A stretch of DNA of 64,000 nucleotides from Xylanimonas cellulosilytica DSM 15894 (GTDB lineage: Bacteria; Actinomycetota; Actinomycetes; Actinomycetales; Cellulomonadaceae): positions 3,348,001 through 3,412,000 of the forward strand of contig NC_013530.1 of the NCBI RefSeq assembly GCF_000024965.1, in the 5' to 3' direction. Positions 24,641 through 29,296 of the stretch are shown piece after piece. The notes under the pieces were generated by a model. That model was not told where the DNA came from and did not search any database. It was given only the letters and a program-made list of their open reading frames with translations. The stretch's first letter is position 1. Every line of letters starts with the position of its first letter. The position numbers and the translations under genes were made by a program.

Positions 24641-24748
<108 letters not shown>

Positions 24749-24815
24749 GAAGTCGGGGGGCCTTTCGTCATGCTCCGAGCGGCGTACGAAGCACTTCTGC
24801 GGGTAAACGGCGGCA

Positions 24816-24887
24816 ACGAAGAGGTCGCAGGTCCCGGCGTTGGCTTGTCGGCCCGCCAGGCGTCACTCTGACCAGCGGAGACGCCGA
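24816..24887 (+). repeat. decayed third copy of the attachment repeat
   Basis: The 17-mer ACGAAGAGGTCGCAGGT (24816-24832) matches the repeat exactly. CTCTGACCAGCGGAGACGC (24866-24884) matches with one change. The distance between the two blocks (50 bp) is the same as in the intact 76-bp repeats, while the middle has diverged. This is best read as an old attachment site left by an earlier insertion. Confidence 0.8.
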
Positions 24888-24932
24888 GTTGGAGACGGAC
24901 AGCCGCATCGCTTGATCGCCTCGAAACTGCCA

Positions 24933-24956
24933 CTGCTGTACCAACTGCTGCACTAA
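24933..24956 (+). repeat. tandem 12-mer pair, left end of island
   Basis: CTGCTGTACCAA is directly followed by CTGCTGCACTAA. The same 12-mer occurs as a tandem pair in the same orientation at 28954-28977, near the right end. These could be binding sites for a recombination protein; this is inference. The rest of 24770-25021 holds no gene I can support. Confidence 0.75.
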
Positions 24957-25021
24957 GAGATCGCGCGGGTGGGTCATGGGCGTCGGCGGGTCCGGGCCGG
25001 CGAGCACGAATGAGGTGTCGC

Positions 25022-26143
25022 TTACGGCTCCTCATCGTCCACGAACGTGACCTTTCGGCGGTTCGCGTGGTTGACGGCCAGGCCGAAGTTGCTTCCGTCG
25101 TTCAGGCCGATCAGGTGGCCGCGACTAGGTGGGCTTCCATCGGGCCGATAGGTCACTGGGTGCCGCATCCCGAGCACTGAACTGCCGAGCAACTGTGCCG
25201 GTGTCGGGCCCAGCGGCAGTGACGGGTACGGAGCGACCTCACCGACACCGTCGCTCCAGTCGGCGTACCGCGCGGCAGCGACATGGAACAAGCAGCCGTA
25301 AAGCGTGGCGAGCAACGTCGACTCGACGAGCAACGAGGGGACGTCCAGCCCCATACGGGTCAGCTCCAGCCCGTGCTTGCCCTCCTCGTCCTTGGGCGGC
25401 TCGGACAGGTAGGCGACGACGGGCGTCTCGAACAGAAGGACTTCTTTCGCCGCGGCGCTCAGTGGAATGGTGTCTCCGGTGCTGGGGATTGCACCGGCGG
25501 GAAAGAACGCGATCCGTTCGTCGAGGCGGGCCCGAACGGCGAACCCATGCTTGTACTTGTTGTTCGCGGCGGCGATGTTGATGTCAGACCGCGTCAGGAG
25601 GTCCACCGTGCGATCCAGCCACTGATGTACGACGTCGACGCCTTGGCGAACGAGCTCGTTCTCCCGGAACTCTATGTGCCGGTCCTTCGGCAGGAGCAGG
25701 TCGAGATGTGCCTGCCCGTCGTTCCATCCATCGCATTCCCGGATCTTGTCGAACACCTGAAGGTTGCTCATCGGGGTCCTCGATAGCGTCGCCCACACGC
25801 TCACGCTCCCTGGTTCAGCCGTCCGTGTCTGCATCAGCGCAAGCCACAGCCGAGCCACCGCTTCTGCGACGTGCTGCCGCAGCGACATCGCATCGACCGC
25901 AACCTGGGTCTGAAGTGCGTCTGAGGTGTGGGCGAGGAAGTCAGTGTCGCCGATCCAGCGCAACTTTGACCTGAACTCGGCGGCCAACCCCTTCGCGTAG
26001 TCGGCCTCAGCACCGTCGGCGTACGCGATCAGGGACCTGACCCGTGCCGAGAAGTAGCCGTGCGGGTCCGACCCGAAGAAGGCGTCGTCGAGCTCGCGAA
26101 CCTGCTCGAGGCTTGGCTCTCGCCCGGTTGGAGGAGGGAACAC
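25022..26143 (-). CDS. island gene 4: uncharacterised 373-aa protein with NNKYKHG motif
   Basis: The family is not recognised. It is a 373-aa soluble, helix-rich protein with no signal peptide or membrane segment. Features are SLRQHVAEAVARLWLALMQ (about 85-105), then IREC and a mid-protein IAAANNKYKHGFAVRAR (about 200-216). An N-x2-Y-K-H-G string is reminiscent of some all-alpha HEPN-like families, but an Rx4-6H active site is not evident, so I make no functional claim. The GTG start at 26143 has AAGG about 10 nt upstream. It is the last gene of the island operon and is separated from the preceding gene by 137 bp holding a 20-bp palindrome. Confidence 0.75.
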   Translation of the reverse strand: MFPPPTGREPSLEQVRELDDAFFGSDPHGYFSARVRSLIAYADGAEADYAKGLAAEFRSKLRWIGDTDFLAHTSDALQTQVAVDAMSLRQHVAEAVARLWLALMQTRTAEPGSVSVWATLSRTPMSNLQVFDKIRECDGWNDGQAHLDLLLPKDRHIEFRENELVRQGVDVVHQWLDRTVDLLTRSDINIAAANNKYKHGFAVRARLDERIAFFPAGAIPSTGDTIPLSAAAKEVLLFETPVVAYLSEPPKDEEGKHGLELTRMGLDVPSLLVESTLLATLYGCLFHVAAARYADWSDGVGEVAPYPSLPLGPTPAQLLGSSVLGMRHPVTYRPDGSPPSRGHLIGLNDGSNFGLAVNHANRRKVTFVDDEEP

Positions 26144-26249
26144 GTCGCGGCGACCTTCTGTCGGTGGCTGAGTCAGGATGTGGGTTCACGAGGCTTACGA
26201 CTCGTACGTTTTCGGCTTCCGCCTCCAGTTCAATTGCAGCGCCGGACGA

Positions 26250-26269
26250 CCGTGCAACGCGTTGCACGG
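26250..26269. promoter_or_regulatory. 20-bp perfect palindrome between island genes 3 and 4
   Basis: CCGTGCAACG followed by its exact complement CGTTGCACGG, with no loop. A spacer-free palindrome is poor as a terminator and suits a dimeric DNA-binding protein. The HTH protein encoded in the same operon is the obvious candidate, though this is not shown. It lies 11 bp past the gene 3 stop and 106 bp before the start of gene 4. Confidence 0.7.
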
Positions 26270-26280
26270 CACGCCAGCCA

Positions 26281-27243
26281 TCAGGTTGAGGCGCCCGTCG
26301 AGTCGGACAGGACCTCCAGATCGAGGCTCTCGGTCTGCTGGTACTGCCGATATGTCATCTCGGCATCCGACAGGACCTCTACCCCGAAGGACACGACTTC
26401 GGTGTCGAGTGACGGGGCCAGCAACTTCGACTCGACCGTCGCCCCGAACATCCTCCAGAGATGTGCGAGCGAGGTCCGGTCGCCATCGAGGTTGGCGAGG
26501 AGGAGCTCGCATGCGCGGTCGAGCGACAGACCGCTCTCCGCTTCACCCGCACGAAGGCCGGCGACGCGCGAGGGATTCCACTGCCAGTTCGGGTCCATCT
26601 CGTCCGGCGGCACCAAGCGCTCCTCTGCCACGACGATGTACAGCGTCAGGTTCCGACCTGGGCTCGCCCACTGGTCCGCGCAGACACGAAGGTCCTCCAC
26701 GAGGTCGAGCACGCGGCCGAAGTTCCCCGCCGAGCCAGCCTTGTCCTGTGCTTGCCGTCGGAGCTTGCTGAACGCCGGGTATACCTCGTCCGGGAATGGG
26801 AAGCGGTTGAATGCCCGGCCGACCCGCCATGCGACTGCCCGCGCTTCACGCCCGCTCGCCTCCGCCACGTACCGAGCCACAAGCCGTGACCCAGAAAGGT
26901 CGGACTTGAGGATCGACACGGCCCGTTCCATGTCCGCGATGCATCGGACCGGCTCGGTTCCACCAGTCTCCAGGTAGAGGTGCAGAGGCTTCTGTCCCTT
27001 CCGGGCACCGGAGAGCGCGGCATCCGTCGGATCGACGACAACCGGTGCGACGAGACATCGGGCCTTGCTCGGCTGCACGACATCGCATGTCTGGCTCAGG
27101 ATCGCAACGCCCGCAGGTGTCGCCACGCTCTCGAACTCGCCGCCAGCGACGGGAAGGCGCAACTCTGCCAGGTCGACGACATCGCCTTGTCGGAGGTTCG
27201 AGCAGTCGTCCGCCACCACCTGCCCGTCGGTGGCATCACTCAC
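26281..27243 (-). CDS. island gene 3: uncharacterised 320-aa protein with ILSQTCDVV motif
   Basis: The family is not recognised. It is a 320-aa soluble protein. The N-terminal part has a beta-rich run LRQGDVVDLAELRLPVAG, then GVAILSQTCDVVQ (about 45-57) and VAPVVVDP. The SQTCD string with a following hydrophobic strand is the most striking motif. The middle carries AWRVGRAFNRFPFPDEVYPA, and the C-terminus is acidic. The start ATG 27243 overlaps the stop of the HTH gene (ATGA), so it is translationally coupled to it. No catalytic site can be assigned. Confidence 0.78.
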   Translation of the reverse strand: MSDATDGQVVADDCSNLRQGDVVDLAELRLPVAGGEFESVATPAGVAILSQTCDVVQPSKARCLVAPVVVDPTDAALSGARKGQKPLHLYLETGGTEPVRCIADMERAVSILKSDLSGSRLVARYVAEASGREARAVAWRVGRAFNRFPFPDEVYPAFSKLRRQAQDKAGSAGNFGRVLDLVEDLRVCADQWASPGRNLTLYIVVAEERLVPPDEMDPNWQWNPSRVAGLRAGEAESGLSLDRACELLLANLDGDRTSLAHLWRMFGATVESKLLAPSLDTEVVSFGVEVLSDAEMTYRQYQQTESLDLEVLSDSTGAST

Positions 27244-27812
27244 AGCCCGATCCGCTCCCTCGCCGACACACCCGCAACTTGCAGCCGCTCCGCCTCGCTC
27301 CTCGTCGCGATGAGCTGATGGAACAGACTCGCGCCACGGCTTGAGTCAAGAAGCGCGGAGCGACGCTCCTCTGGGGTTGCGCCCGGCAGTGCCTGGACGA
27401 TGGCGAGAACCGCGGCAGCCCGCTCCTCGTGCTGCGGAGCCATCGCATTGCCGCTAATCCAGTTGTGCACAGATCGTCGCGAGACACCGAAAAGCCGCCC
27501 GACTTGATCGGTCGTGAGACCGGCCAGCGCTCGAATCTCGGCGATGCGCTGGGACAGCGATGCTGCCACCCCACTAGCCACTGAGCCATCCGTCTTCAGC
27601 ACGCCCGAACTCGTCTGGCCCACCTGGGCGGCGAACTCGGGGACGGAAGCGGGTGAGTAATCCTGACGGACCGAGGTGGTCATCCACGGGTGCGCAGGCG
27701 GAGCGACTCCCACTGCCGACGAGGTCACGAGCGCGCAACCGAACGCCAGAGCGAACGGTGCGCCAGCGCCGACACGGCGTCGCTCAAGCGTTGCGCCTGA
27801 AGTCGAGGTCAC
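27240..27812 (-). CDS. island gene 2: helix-turn-helix DNA-binding protein
   Basis: A 190-aa protein whose centre (about residues 85-135) is an XRE-like helix-turn-helix: RIAEIRALAGLTTDQVGRLF, then GVSRRSVHNWISGN. The first 60 residues are low in charge and include a mildly hydrophobic stretch (APFALAFGCALVTSSAVGV) that could be a tail or an over-extended start; an internal start is possible. It overlaps the genes on both sides by four bases. It is probably the regulator or the DNA-targeting part of the island operon. Confidence 0.82.
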   Translation of the reverse strand: MTSTSGATLERRRVGAGAPFALAFGCALVTSSAVGVAPPAHPWMTTSVRQDYSPASVPEFAAQVGQTSSGVLKTDGSVASGVAASLSQRIAEIRALAGLTTDQVGRLFGVSRRSVHNWISGNAMAPQHEERAAAVLAIVQALPGATPEERRSALLDSSRGASLFHQLIATRSEAERLQVAGVSARERIGL

Positions 27813-28621
27813 TCGGCATCACCGAACTCCTTGAGGAACCCCTCAGTCGAGACTTGCTTGAAGAAGTCGTAGGCGAAGTCGGACAGCCTTCCGGCAGTCG
27901 ACAGCACGCTCGACGCGTCGAACGGAGCCACGCGTTCCGACGACGCATCCAGGTCGAGGACCCACGACGGGACCTGTGCAGGTGAAACGGCGGGATCGAC
28001 GGTCTCGCCCGCAGGCACGATCCCCGAACGCACTTGCAGCGCAGCGTCGTCGACCACGTATCGGGCCTGGTTGGCGCTCGACGCAAGACGAACATAGTCC
28101 GACACTCCAGCCAGGCCGGAGTACCCCAAGACTTCCGGACGCACGTACTCTCCGAGGTTCTCAACGAGCCGCGAGTCCGTGACCTGGTTGACGTACCGAA
28201 CACCGACCCGCTCGACGAGCGGCACCTTGACCTGCGTCTCGACGGCTTCCAGGACAGACTCGAGCCGCTCCAGGAAGTCCGGGAACGAAGTGTACGTAGT
28301 GCAGTACAGAGTCACGAACCGGCGGCTCAGGCTGATGTGCCACACGCCGTCGATCGAGTGCCACTGGAAGATCTTCTCGCCGGGCTGCTGCGTGACGCCC
28401 TCAGGCGTGATCGTGTAGGCCACCTCATGCAGGTTTGAGATGACCGGGTACTCGTCGAGCACCGAGCCGAACGCCTGCGCGGTCTCGCCCAGATCGCCCC
28501 GGAGATGCTGGAACTCGGGCCAGCGGATCTGGCACAGCACGAGGGCCAGAGGGGCGTTTTTCAGACGGATCTTCTTCTCCGTGTCGCCAGTGAACGGTCG
28601 GAAGCGCTCTCGATCTGCCAT
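27809..28621 (-). CDS. island gene 1: TIGR04255-family-like protein
   Basis: A 270-aa soluble protein resembling the sporadically distributed TIGR04255 family by its opening (RLKNAPLALVLCQIRWPEF, about 19-37) and the mid-protein pair FVTLYCTTYTSFPDFLERL and VERVGVRYVNQV (about 136-147). The family has no known function; members occur singly in many phyla, which fits horizontal transfer. The start ATG 28621 is preceded by repeated TGTGAAG units rather than a clear Shine-Dalgarno. It is the first gene of the four-gene island operon, with its stop overlapping gene 2. Confidence 0.8.
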   Translation of the reverse strand: MADRERFRPFTGDTEKKIRLKNAPLALVLCQIRWPEFQHLRGDLGETAQAFGSVLDEYPVISNLHEVAYTITPEGVTQQPGEKIFQWHSIDGVWHISLSRRFVTLYCTTYTSFPDFLERLESVLEAVETQVKVPLVERVGVRYVNQVTDSRLVENLGEYVRPEVLGYSGLAGVSDYVRLASSANQARYVVDDAALQVRSGIVPAGETVDPAVSPAQVPSWVLDLDASSERVAPFDASSVLSTAGRLSDFAYDFFKQVSTEGFLKEFGDAE

Positions 28622-28622
28622 G

Positions 28623-28662
28623 CTTCACACCCTACTTCACACCTCTGACAGTACCCTGTGAA
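28623..28662 (-). promoter_or_regulatory. repeat cluster over the start region of the island operon
   Basis: On the plus strand CTTCACACC occurs at 28623-28631 and again at 28635-28643 (12-bp period). TGTGAA at 28657-28662 forms an inverted repeat with TTCACA at 28636-28641. The cluster touches the start codon of island gene 1, an ideal place for an autorepressor. No -10/-35 pair could be picked with confidence. Confidence 0.6.
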
Positions 28663-28953
28663 CCCGCGACACCTGCTCGGGCAAGGGCCGCGCCAAGCTC
28701 GTCAGAGGTGGAACCGGTGCGTGGTCCTCGCTGGGTCGCGCCAAGGAGTGTATCGGCGAGGACCGGGCTCCTTGCGGCCCTGTTCCCCCGCGCCCTCGTC
28801 CGCGGGATGGGAGCGGCCCGCGTATCGGCGTCGAGCTCAAGCACTTCCCAGGTCAAAGGCGCGGCCATCGGCGGATGCAACGGCTCCGACGCGCCGATCG
28901 GGCCACGCGAGATTGCCGAGGTACACCTGCCGGCAGCGCGTGCCGCGAACCCT
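28663..28953. other. non-coding or decayed stretch inside the island
   Basis: No reading frame here has a family match or a convincing start. Translation on either strand gives low-complexity Arg/Ala/Pro text. It may hold remnants of a lost integrase gene, but no integrase motif (Arg-His-x-x-Arg or Ser-recombinase) can be seen. Confidence 0.5.
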
Positions 28954-28977
28954 TTGCTGCACTAACTGCTGCACTAC
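28954..28977 (+). repeat. tandem 12-mer pair, right end of island
   Basis: TTGCTGCACTAA is directly followed by CTGCTGCACTAC, the same unit and orientation as at 24933-24956. It lies 64 bp inside the right attachment repeat. Confidence 0.75.
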
Positions 28978-29040
28978 GCCGGCGAACGGCCGCGCGCGGA
29001 ATCGCAACGCTCAAGGCGCGTTCTGGCCCGTCACAGTCGC

Positions 29041-29116
<76 letters not shown>

Positions 29117-29296
29117 TGGCGCAGGGGGCCTTTCGTCGTACCCGGAGGGACTCCTTCGTTGTCTGCTGGCGCTACTGCTGGGTTAGCGGCGATGGTCCGG
29201 AGCCGGCGTCTGGGTCTCGGCCGGGTCGCCGTTCGCGAGTGCGGCCTCACCGGTGTGGTCGGCGGTGGTTGAACCGTCGCCGCGCACGAGCCGAGC

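Follow-up and report, generated by a model that had tools for sequence, protein, structure and literature searches.

Background

The closest described counterparts of the locus considered here are of three kinds: type II and tripartite toxin-antitoxin (TA) operons with a separate regulator, the mRNA interferases of the MazF/PemK type (Kid/CcdB superfamily), and the actinomycete integrative elements (AICE) that reside at tRNA genes. A fourth point of reference is the NCBIfam family TIGR04255, a single-protein model of sporadic distribution and without an assigned function. Here we describe a locus from Xylanimonas cellulosilytica DSM 15894 that touches all of these. It lies in a stretch of 64,000 nucleotides (hereafter the window; contig NC_013530.1, positions 3,348,001 to 3,412,000), where four genes had been put forward, from the nucleotide sequence and its translations, as a candidate undescribed system. 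They encode a TIGR04255-like protein, an XRE-like helix-turn-helix (HTH) protein and two proteins named after their motifs, SQTCD and NNKYKHG (the latter also P0001). Our analysis upholds the conserved module for the first three genes, which form a previously undescribed operon with the order TIGR04255-HTH-SQTCD, moving as one unit, and removes the fourth from it. The passages searched of PMC2701414, a survey of TA gene pairs from 2009, contain no such triad.

Results

A conserved three-gene operon

The four open reading frames (ORFs) proved real and correctly placed. The overlaps between TIGR04255 and HTH (27809-27812) and between HTH and SQTCD (27240-27243) are exactly four bases long, and the NNKYKHG gene begins 137 bp downstream of the SQTCD gene, without overlap. 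The original prediction derived a fixed stoichiometry from the overlaps, which does not follow; they suggest translational coupling of the triad genes instead. Purifying selection on the triad (dN 0.14-0.39 against dS >1, dN/dS ~0.1-0.2) shows the three overlapping ORFs to be genes.

The first gene product matches NCBIfam TIGR04255.1 with an E-value of 1.1e-43 and 149.9 bits (cut-off 30) over model positions 1-252 of 252, and is thus a full-length member of the family, while the second matches Pfam HTH_23/HTH_31 at ~2e-5; both assignments agree with what had been read from the letters. The SQTCD and NNKYKHG proteins matched no family in Pfam, NCBIfam or PADLOC, in keeping with the earlier failure to name one, and in PADLOC-DB 2.0.0 the component proteins had nothing beyond weak matches to generic HTH models (E 0.0035 or worse). 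No profile places the triad proteins in ordinary metabolic families, the alternative under which the prediction would have fallen. We also considered the HTH protein as a membrane-anchored sensor, a role that we do not claim: only 12 of 91 members have a hydrophobic stretch with a mean above 1.6.

A search with the SQTCD protein was positive in 6 of the 297 genomes of the order, that of X. cellulosilytica included, and on 4 plasmids from three phyla; in all nine homologues outside the window (9/9), the HTH and TIGR04255 genes lie directly upstream. A wider sample came from a scan of 84,980 species on the SQTCD motif pattern alone, in which 80 of 101 loci were kept, and 4 loci came from viral contigs. 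Among the 93 loci of the co-occurrence count, directly upstream of SQTCD and in the fixed order, the HTH gene is present in 89 and the TIGR04255 gene in 85, several of the incomplete triads being contig ends (e.g. L036, L039, L088). Co-occurrence in other genomes, which the original prediction had made a test of itself, thus holds for the first three genes. Three duplicates (L004, L005, L007) were omitted from later counts. The hosts represent at least seven phyla, among them Actinomycetota, Cyanobacteriota, Pseudomonadota, Myxococcota, Planctomycetota, Acidobacteriota and Rokubacteria. In the tree of TIGR04255 the window sequence stands beside Propionibacteriaceae, and Pseudomonadota, Myxococcota, Acidobacteriota and Planctomycetota are intermixed. 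The triads occur in plasmid, prophage and viral contexts among others, and their distribution is patchy and horizontally mobile.

The three proteins have diverged together: over 68 loci, the pairwise correlations of their distances are 0.91, 0.85 and 0.84, with a permutation maximum of 0.25. In about 74 of 82 loci, NTGA is the context of the TIGR04255 stop codon. The fixed order, the correlated distances and the dN/dS ratios therefore identify the triad as an evolutionary unit.

The NNKYKHG gene does not share this history. Homologues of P0001 were found in none of the 93 triad loci and in none of the viral contigs; they do occur on Arthrobacter and Glutamicibacter plasmids without the triad, and the motif, conserved as N-K-x-K-H-G, is invariant in the three proteins (window, L176 and L177). 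On these plasmids the homologues (L176, 5860-7107; L177, 3873-5036) lie near genes for a recombinase, Abi family proteins, AbiE and DUF4365. Judged by this distribution, the NNKYKHG gene is an unrelated, separate cargo of the same element, outside the conserved operon.

A predicted operator and probable autoregulation

In the closest relatives the regions upstream of the operon are unrelated save for the last ~30 bases, which read TGTC....TGTGAAGTAGAGTGTGAAGC-ATG. Over 82 loci, the tandem repeat TGTGAA-N6-TGTGAA is present upstream of the TIGR04255 gene without mismatch in 55 and with at most one mismatch in 69; shuffled sequences gave 0 exact sites and 0.05 with up to one mismatch, and random stretches of the same loci ~1 and ~2, respectively. 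In most actinobacterial loci the repeat abuts the start codon; most of the others have it inverted and at a greater distance upstream. The host genome contains a single such site at up to 3 mismatches, the one listed in Table 1, and the exact core has no other match in 396 genomes of the phylum. As for other genes under this operator, exact sites were found at 59 loci of viral contigs, only 2 of them at a TIGR04255 gene, and we took the rest as chance occurrences. None of the papers searched contains TIGR04255 or the operator sequence.

In divergent operons the 12-bp spacing is kept and the letters of the repeat are altered. The recognition helix of the window protein is VSRRSVHNW. Four loci with TGGGAA repeats (L054, L059, L087, L164) all carry VDRR instead of VSRR in this helix (Fisher p 4.6e-5 for VDRR against TGGGAA, on approximate counts), and the loci with TGTAAA repeats (L173, L174, L175 and probably L153) all have Q in place of its second R, giving helices of the xRQ form. 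Because the diverged repeats track the changes in the recognition helix, autoregulation of the operon by the HTH protein, presumably through binding to the tandem operator, is well supported. Three of the four loci that combine VDRR with TGGGAA belong to one clade and other VDRR members retain TGTGAA, so that the covariation of helix and operator is support for autoregulation rather than proof. A possible -10 element, TAGGGT, would fit a leaderless promoter and transcript; its conservation is inseparable from that of the operator.

The SQTCD protein and the MazF/PemK fold

The AlphaFold2 (AF2) model of the SQTCD protein, built from 81 sequences, has a pLDDT of 89.5, and in a Foldseek comparison all of its 50 best PDB matches (50/50) are MazF, with probability up to 1.00. 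The profile alignment with MazF relatives pairs the SQTCD motif ADLxRxxTVxK with EQVxTV, as the fold predicts. Pfam gave no match to PF02452 (MazF/PemK) at E-values up to 10, and a sequence search of solved structures with the SQTCD, TIGR04255 and P0001 proteins matched none. The residues Q51-T52-C53-D54 are invariant in 87 SQTCD sequences, and R143, R147, R186, W192 and D308 nearly so; the invariant Cys-Asp and the several nearly invariant Arg suggest that the protein performs chemistry. It is plausible that SQTCD is an effector of the PemK fold, and it may act as effectors of the MazF fold do.

TIGR04255 and variants of the third gene

The AF2 model of the TIGR04255 protein has a pLDDT of 92.6. 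Its matches in the PDB are weak and mixed, none of them firm, and a library of viral structures returned one unnamed match at E 4e-8 together with weaker ones to the TATA-binding protein (TBP) and an early transcription factor, which hint weakly at a TBP-like fold.

In a class-wide sample, TIGR04255 genes are present in 19 of 297 genomes: approximately one third are followed by a third gene of the SQTCD type, one third have the HTH gene and another third gene, and one third stand alone. The HDCD-type third gene found on Pseudomonas and Meiothermus plasmids is a true relative of SQTCD (97.8%, E 1.3e-12); for the HPC type, homology to SQTCD was not significant (E 0.056). In L160 (115-861), L162 (2915-3622) and L166 (2932-3696) the TIGR04255-HTH pair precedes a third gene with a GDVF...HPC motif, and the operator is diverged or different. 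Solo TIGR04255 genes without HTH were seen in L155, L156, L157, L163 and L165, all of one genus, probably Mycobacterium, as they have PPE-like neighbours.

The tRNA-Pro element

All four genes lie in a 4.4-kb element (window 24673-29147) between a tRNA-Pro gene and a duplicate of that gene's 3' end. None of the four genes between the attachment (att) sites encodes an integrase. The GC content at third codon positions is 0.72-0.82 in the genes of the element against 0.94-0.95 in two neighbouring host genes, and their total GC is also lower. Just inside both att sites are pairs of 11-12-nt repeats of the ACTGCTGCACTA type, and such a pair occurs at only two sites in the host genome, one per element end. 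We propose that these are integrase arm sites; since no integrase accompanies the att and candidate arm sites, the element would have to be mobilised in trans, or else is stranded. The flanking tRNA-Pro and att repeats, the operator and the restriction to three genes were all absent from the original prediction.

The tRNA locus has a full-length match in five genomes of the same genus. In one of them (G299) an 11-kb island is bounded by the same att core; it has an integrase-like ORF adjoining the tRNA gene and, at both ends, paired repeats of another sequence; the remaining four (G298, G302, G297, G306) have other content after the tRNA gene. Two further triads (L024, L031) are situated between a tRNA gene and a copy of its end. 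The Clavibacter triad of L031 (5501-15267) belongs to an island of ~9.7 kb, bounded by tRNA-Arg on one side and by an identical 48-nt copy of the tRNA end on the other. That of L024 (12-4664), from Acidimicrobiaceae, is on a 4.7-kb contig with tRNA-Ile and a partial end copy, a LanC-like gene being the sole other cargo seen. The genome of X. cellulosilytica contains a second stretch of this kind, of 4.1 kb (L121, 1621-5857; host genome ~2013621-2017857), with a 94-nt repeat (89%) of the end of tRNA-Val at its flanks; it has a patatin-like ORF, and no integrase was seen in it by eye.

The neighbours of the triads are not constant. They include integrases, resolvases, relaxases and transposases, as well as defence-type genes (type I restriction-modification, prokaryotic Argonaute, reverse transcriptase and the Wadjet gene JetA); the presence of defence genes beside triads is suggestive only.

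Table 1. Features of the tRNA-Pro element and its operon (positions in the window)
Feature	Position	Strand	Basis
tRNA-Pro (cgg), integration site	24641..24717	+	ARAGORN
attL-type repeat, 76 bp identical to 29041-29116 (107 nt at 91%)	24673..24748	+	repeat comparison
Inner paired repeat CTGCTGTACCA-ACTGCTGCACTA, candidate integrase arm site	24933..24955	+	paired repeat
NNKYKHG protein (P0001), 373 aa, separate cargo gene	25022..26143	-	no homologue in 93 triad loci
SQTCD protein, 320 aa, operon gene 3, predicted MazF/PemK-fold effector	26281..27243	-	AF2, Foldseek, conservation
XRE-like HTH protein, 190 aa, operon gene 2, predicted autoregulator	27240..27812	-	HTH_23/HTH_31
TIGR04255 family protein, 270 aa, operon gene 1	27809..28621	-	NCBIfam TIGR04255.1, E 1.1e-43
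Operator TGTGAAGTAGGGTGTGAA, 12-bp direct repeat, 2 bases before gene 1 ATG	28624..28641	-	conserved in 82-locus comparison
Possible -10 element TAGGGT inside operator, 7 nt before ATG	28629..28634	-	sequence, inference
Inner paired repeat TTGCTGCACTA-ACTGCTGCACTA, candidate integrase arm site	28954..28976	+	paired repeat
attR-type repeat	29041..29116	+	repeat comparison

Discussion

Most likely, we infer, the triad is a mobile conflict module of the abortive-infection or toxin-antitoxin-like kind. We envisage the following scenario. The HTH protein would bind the tandem operator at the promoter and keep the operon low, a step with strong support from the sequence comparison. Coupled translation would yield the TIGR04255 and SQTCD proteins together; SQTCD would be the effector, and TIGR04255 would serve it as sensor, carrier or restrainer. 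The arrival of a phage or some other element, the most likely trigger, would lift the repression and/or release the effector, and the freed SQTCD would act on RNA, protein or a nucleotide via its QTCD site, halting growth. In this genome the operon is carried by the tRNA-Pro element, which would depend on an integrase in trans or is stranded. Taken as a whole, this explanation of a self-repressed mobile operon, with growth arrest released by a trigger, seems to us evenly poised between right and wrong.

Several observations weigh against it. The likeness of SQTCD to MazF is at the level of the fold (best E 4e-3, TM ~0.5-0.6 of the target), and the hhalign profile-profile comparison with MazF relatives (E 0.097) is not significant alone. 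The catalytic residues of MazF are an Arg (in RPVLV) and a Thr (in AxxT); in SQTCD the former corresponds to Gly45 and the latter to a hydrophobic residue, in a register that is partly inferred. With neither the sequence nor the active site in agreement, we do not file SQTCD under MazF, and reject the notion of an ordinary member of that family; a member of the PemK fold with a different active site appears to be the simplest reading. TIGR04255 need not be tied to a toxin, since it is found alone in some genomes. Finally, in PADLOC matches the triad context is only modestly above a small control, 99 proteins of the same genomes with few matches, on rough counts made per model.

A bolder version of the conflict module can be imagined, in which the triad is an immune module of a categorically new kind that crosses phyla. 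A TIGR04255 protein of TBP-like fold would recognise a molecule of the invader, a dedicated repressor with its very widely conserved operator would control the operon, and a PemK-fold enzyme with a new Cys-Asp active site would execute the response, the third gene having diversified (SQTCD, HDCD, perhaps HPC) while the other two were kept. We offer this tentatively, as a proposal that is more probably wrong than right.

Two alternatives seem unlikely to about the same degree. The triad could be an addiction module that retains plasmids and islands and has no specific antiphage role, with SQTCD as the toxin and TIGR04255 and/or the HTH protein as antitoxin and repressor. The predicted autorepression at a tandem operator, the MazF-like predicted fold of SQTCD and the plasmid and island locations would all fit such a module, but its three proteins, of 190-320 aa, are larger than is common in type II pairs, none is from a known antitoxin family and the MazF catalytic residues are absent. 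The same absence of the canonical catalytic pair would also fit the triad as an accessory regulatory or sensing operon (responding to stress, a metabolite or DNA damage) that has no toxic effector and in which SQTCD is a binding protein keeping only the PemK fold. The weak TBP-like fold of TIGR04255 and its solo genes could also be so explained; the patchy, mobile distribution without constant neighbours argues against this, as do the invariant Cys-Asp and nearly invariant Arg of SQTCD, which suggest chemistry.

It is quite improbable that the triad serves competition between elements (counter-defence or exclusion) to the benefit of the carrier plasmid, prophage or island. Triads are found in viral contigs and on conjugative plasmids, in one case beside conjugation genes, but also in chromosomes, where no constant transfer or phage genes adjoin them. 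A four-gene module including the NNKYKHG protein, to which the common strand and element in the window might have pointed, is hardly credible and is ruled out as a conserved unit by the absence of P0001 from 93/93 loci, by the 137-bp gap and by homologues elsewhere without the triad.

With these results TIGR04255, a curated family without a function, gains two constant partners, a predicted operator and a predicted partner fold, and because all three are now given, its role becomes directly testable. A predicted operator kept almost letter for letter across phyla, from actinobacteria to cyanobacteria, with covariation of helix and bases, is unusual. The triad brings its own regulation with it and could function in many hosts. 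Should the effector prove to be a toxin, it would combine the MazF fold with an active site unlike that of MazF.

Comparison with described systems

As an integrative element, the tRNA-Pro element shares its target and its att repeats with AICE, but is only 4.4 kb long and lacks integrase, replication and transfer genes; it has the same att core as the 11-kb island of G299, with different inner repeats. Among proteins, SQTCD may share its predicted fold with the MazF/PemK interferases, and has the same order of features, namely an RGD-like start, a turn with QTCD in place of the QND of MazF, and ADLxRxxTVxK in place of EQxRTV. Unlike them, it is ~200 aa longer, is not matched by PF02452, does not conserve the active-site Arg and Thr, and is not adjoined by a MazE, AbrB, PHD or RHH (ribbon-helix-helix) antitoxin. 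Among operons, the triad resembles type II and tripartite TA systems with a separate regulator in its predicted autorepression, its compact overlapping genes and its mobile, patchy spread, and it shows the type II feature of an autoregulated compact operon in its conserved operator, with putative binding by the HTH protein, and its four-base overlaps, whereas the listed TA families include none of its three proteins. A mobile, autorepressed operon that includes a MazF-fold protein is a known layout; the composition is new.

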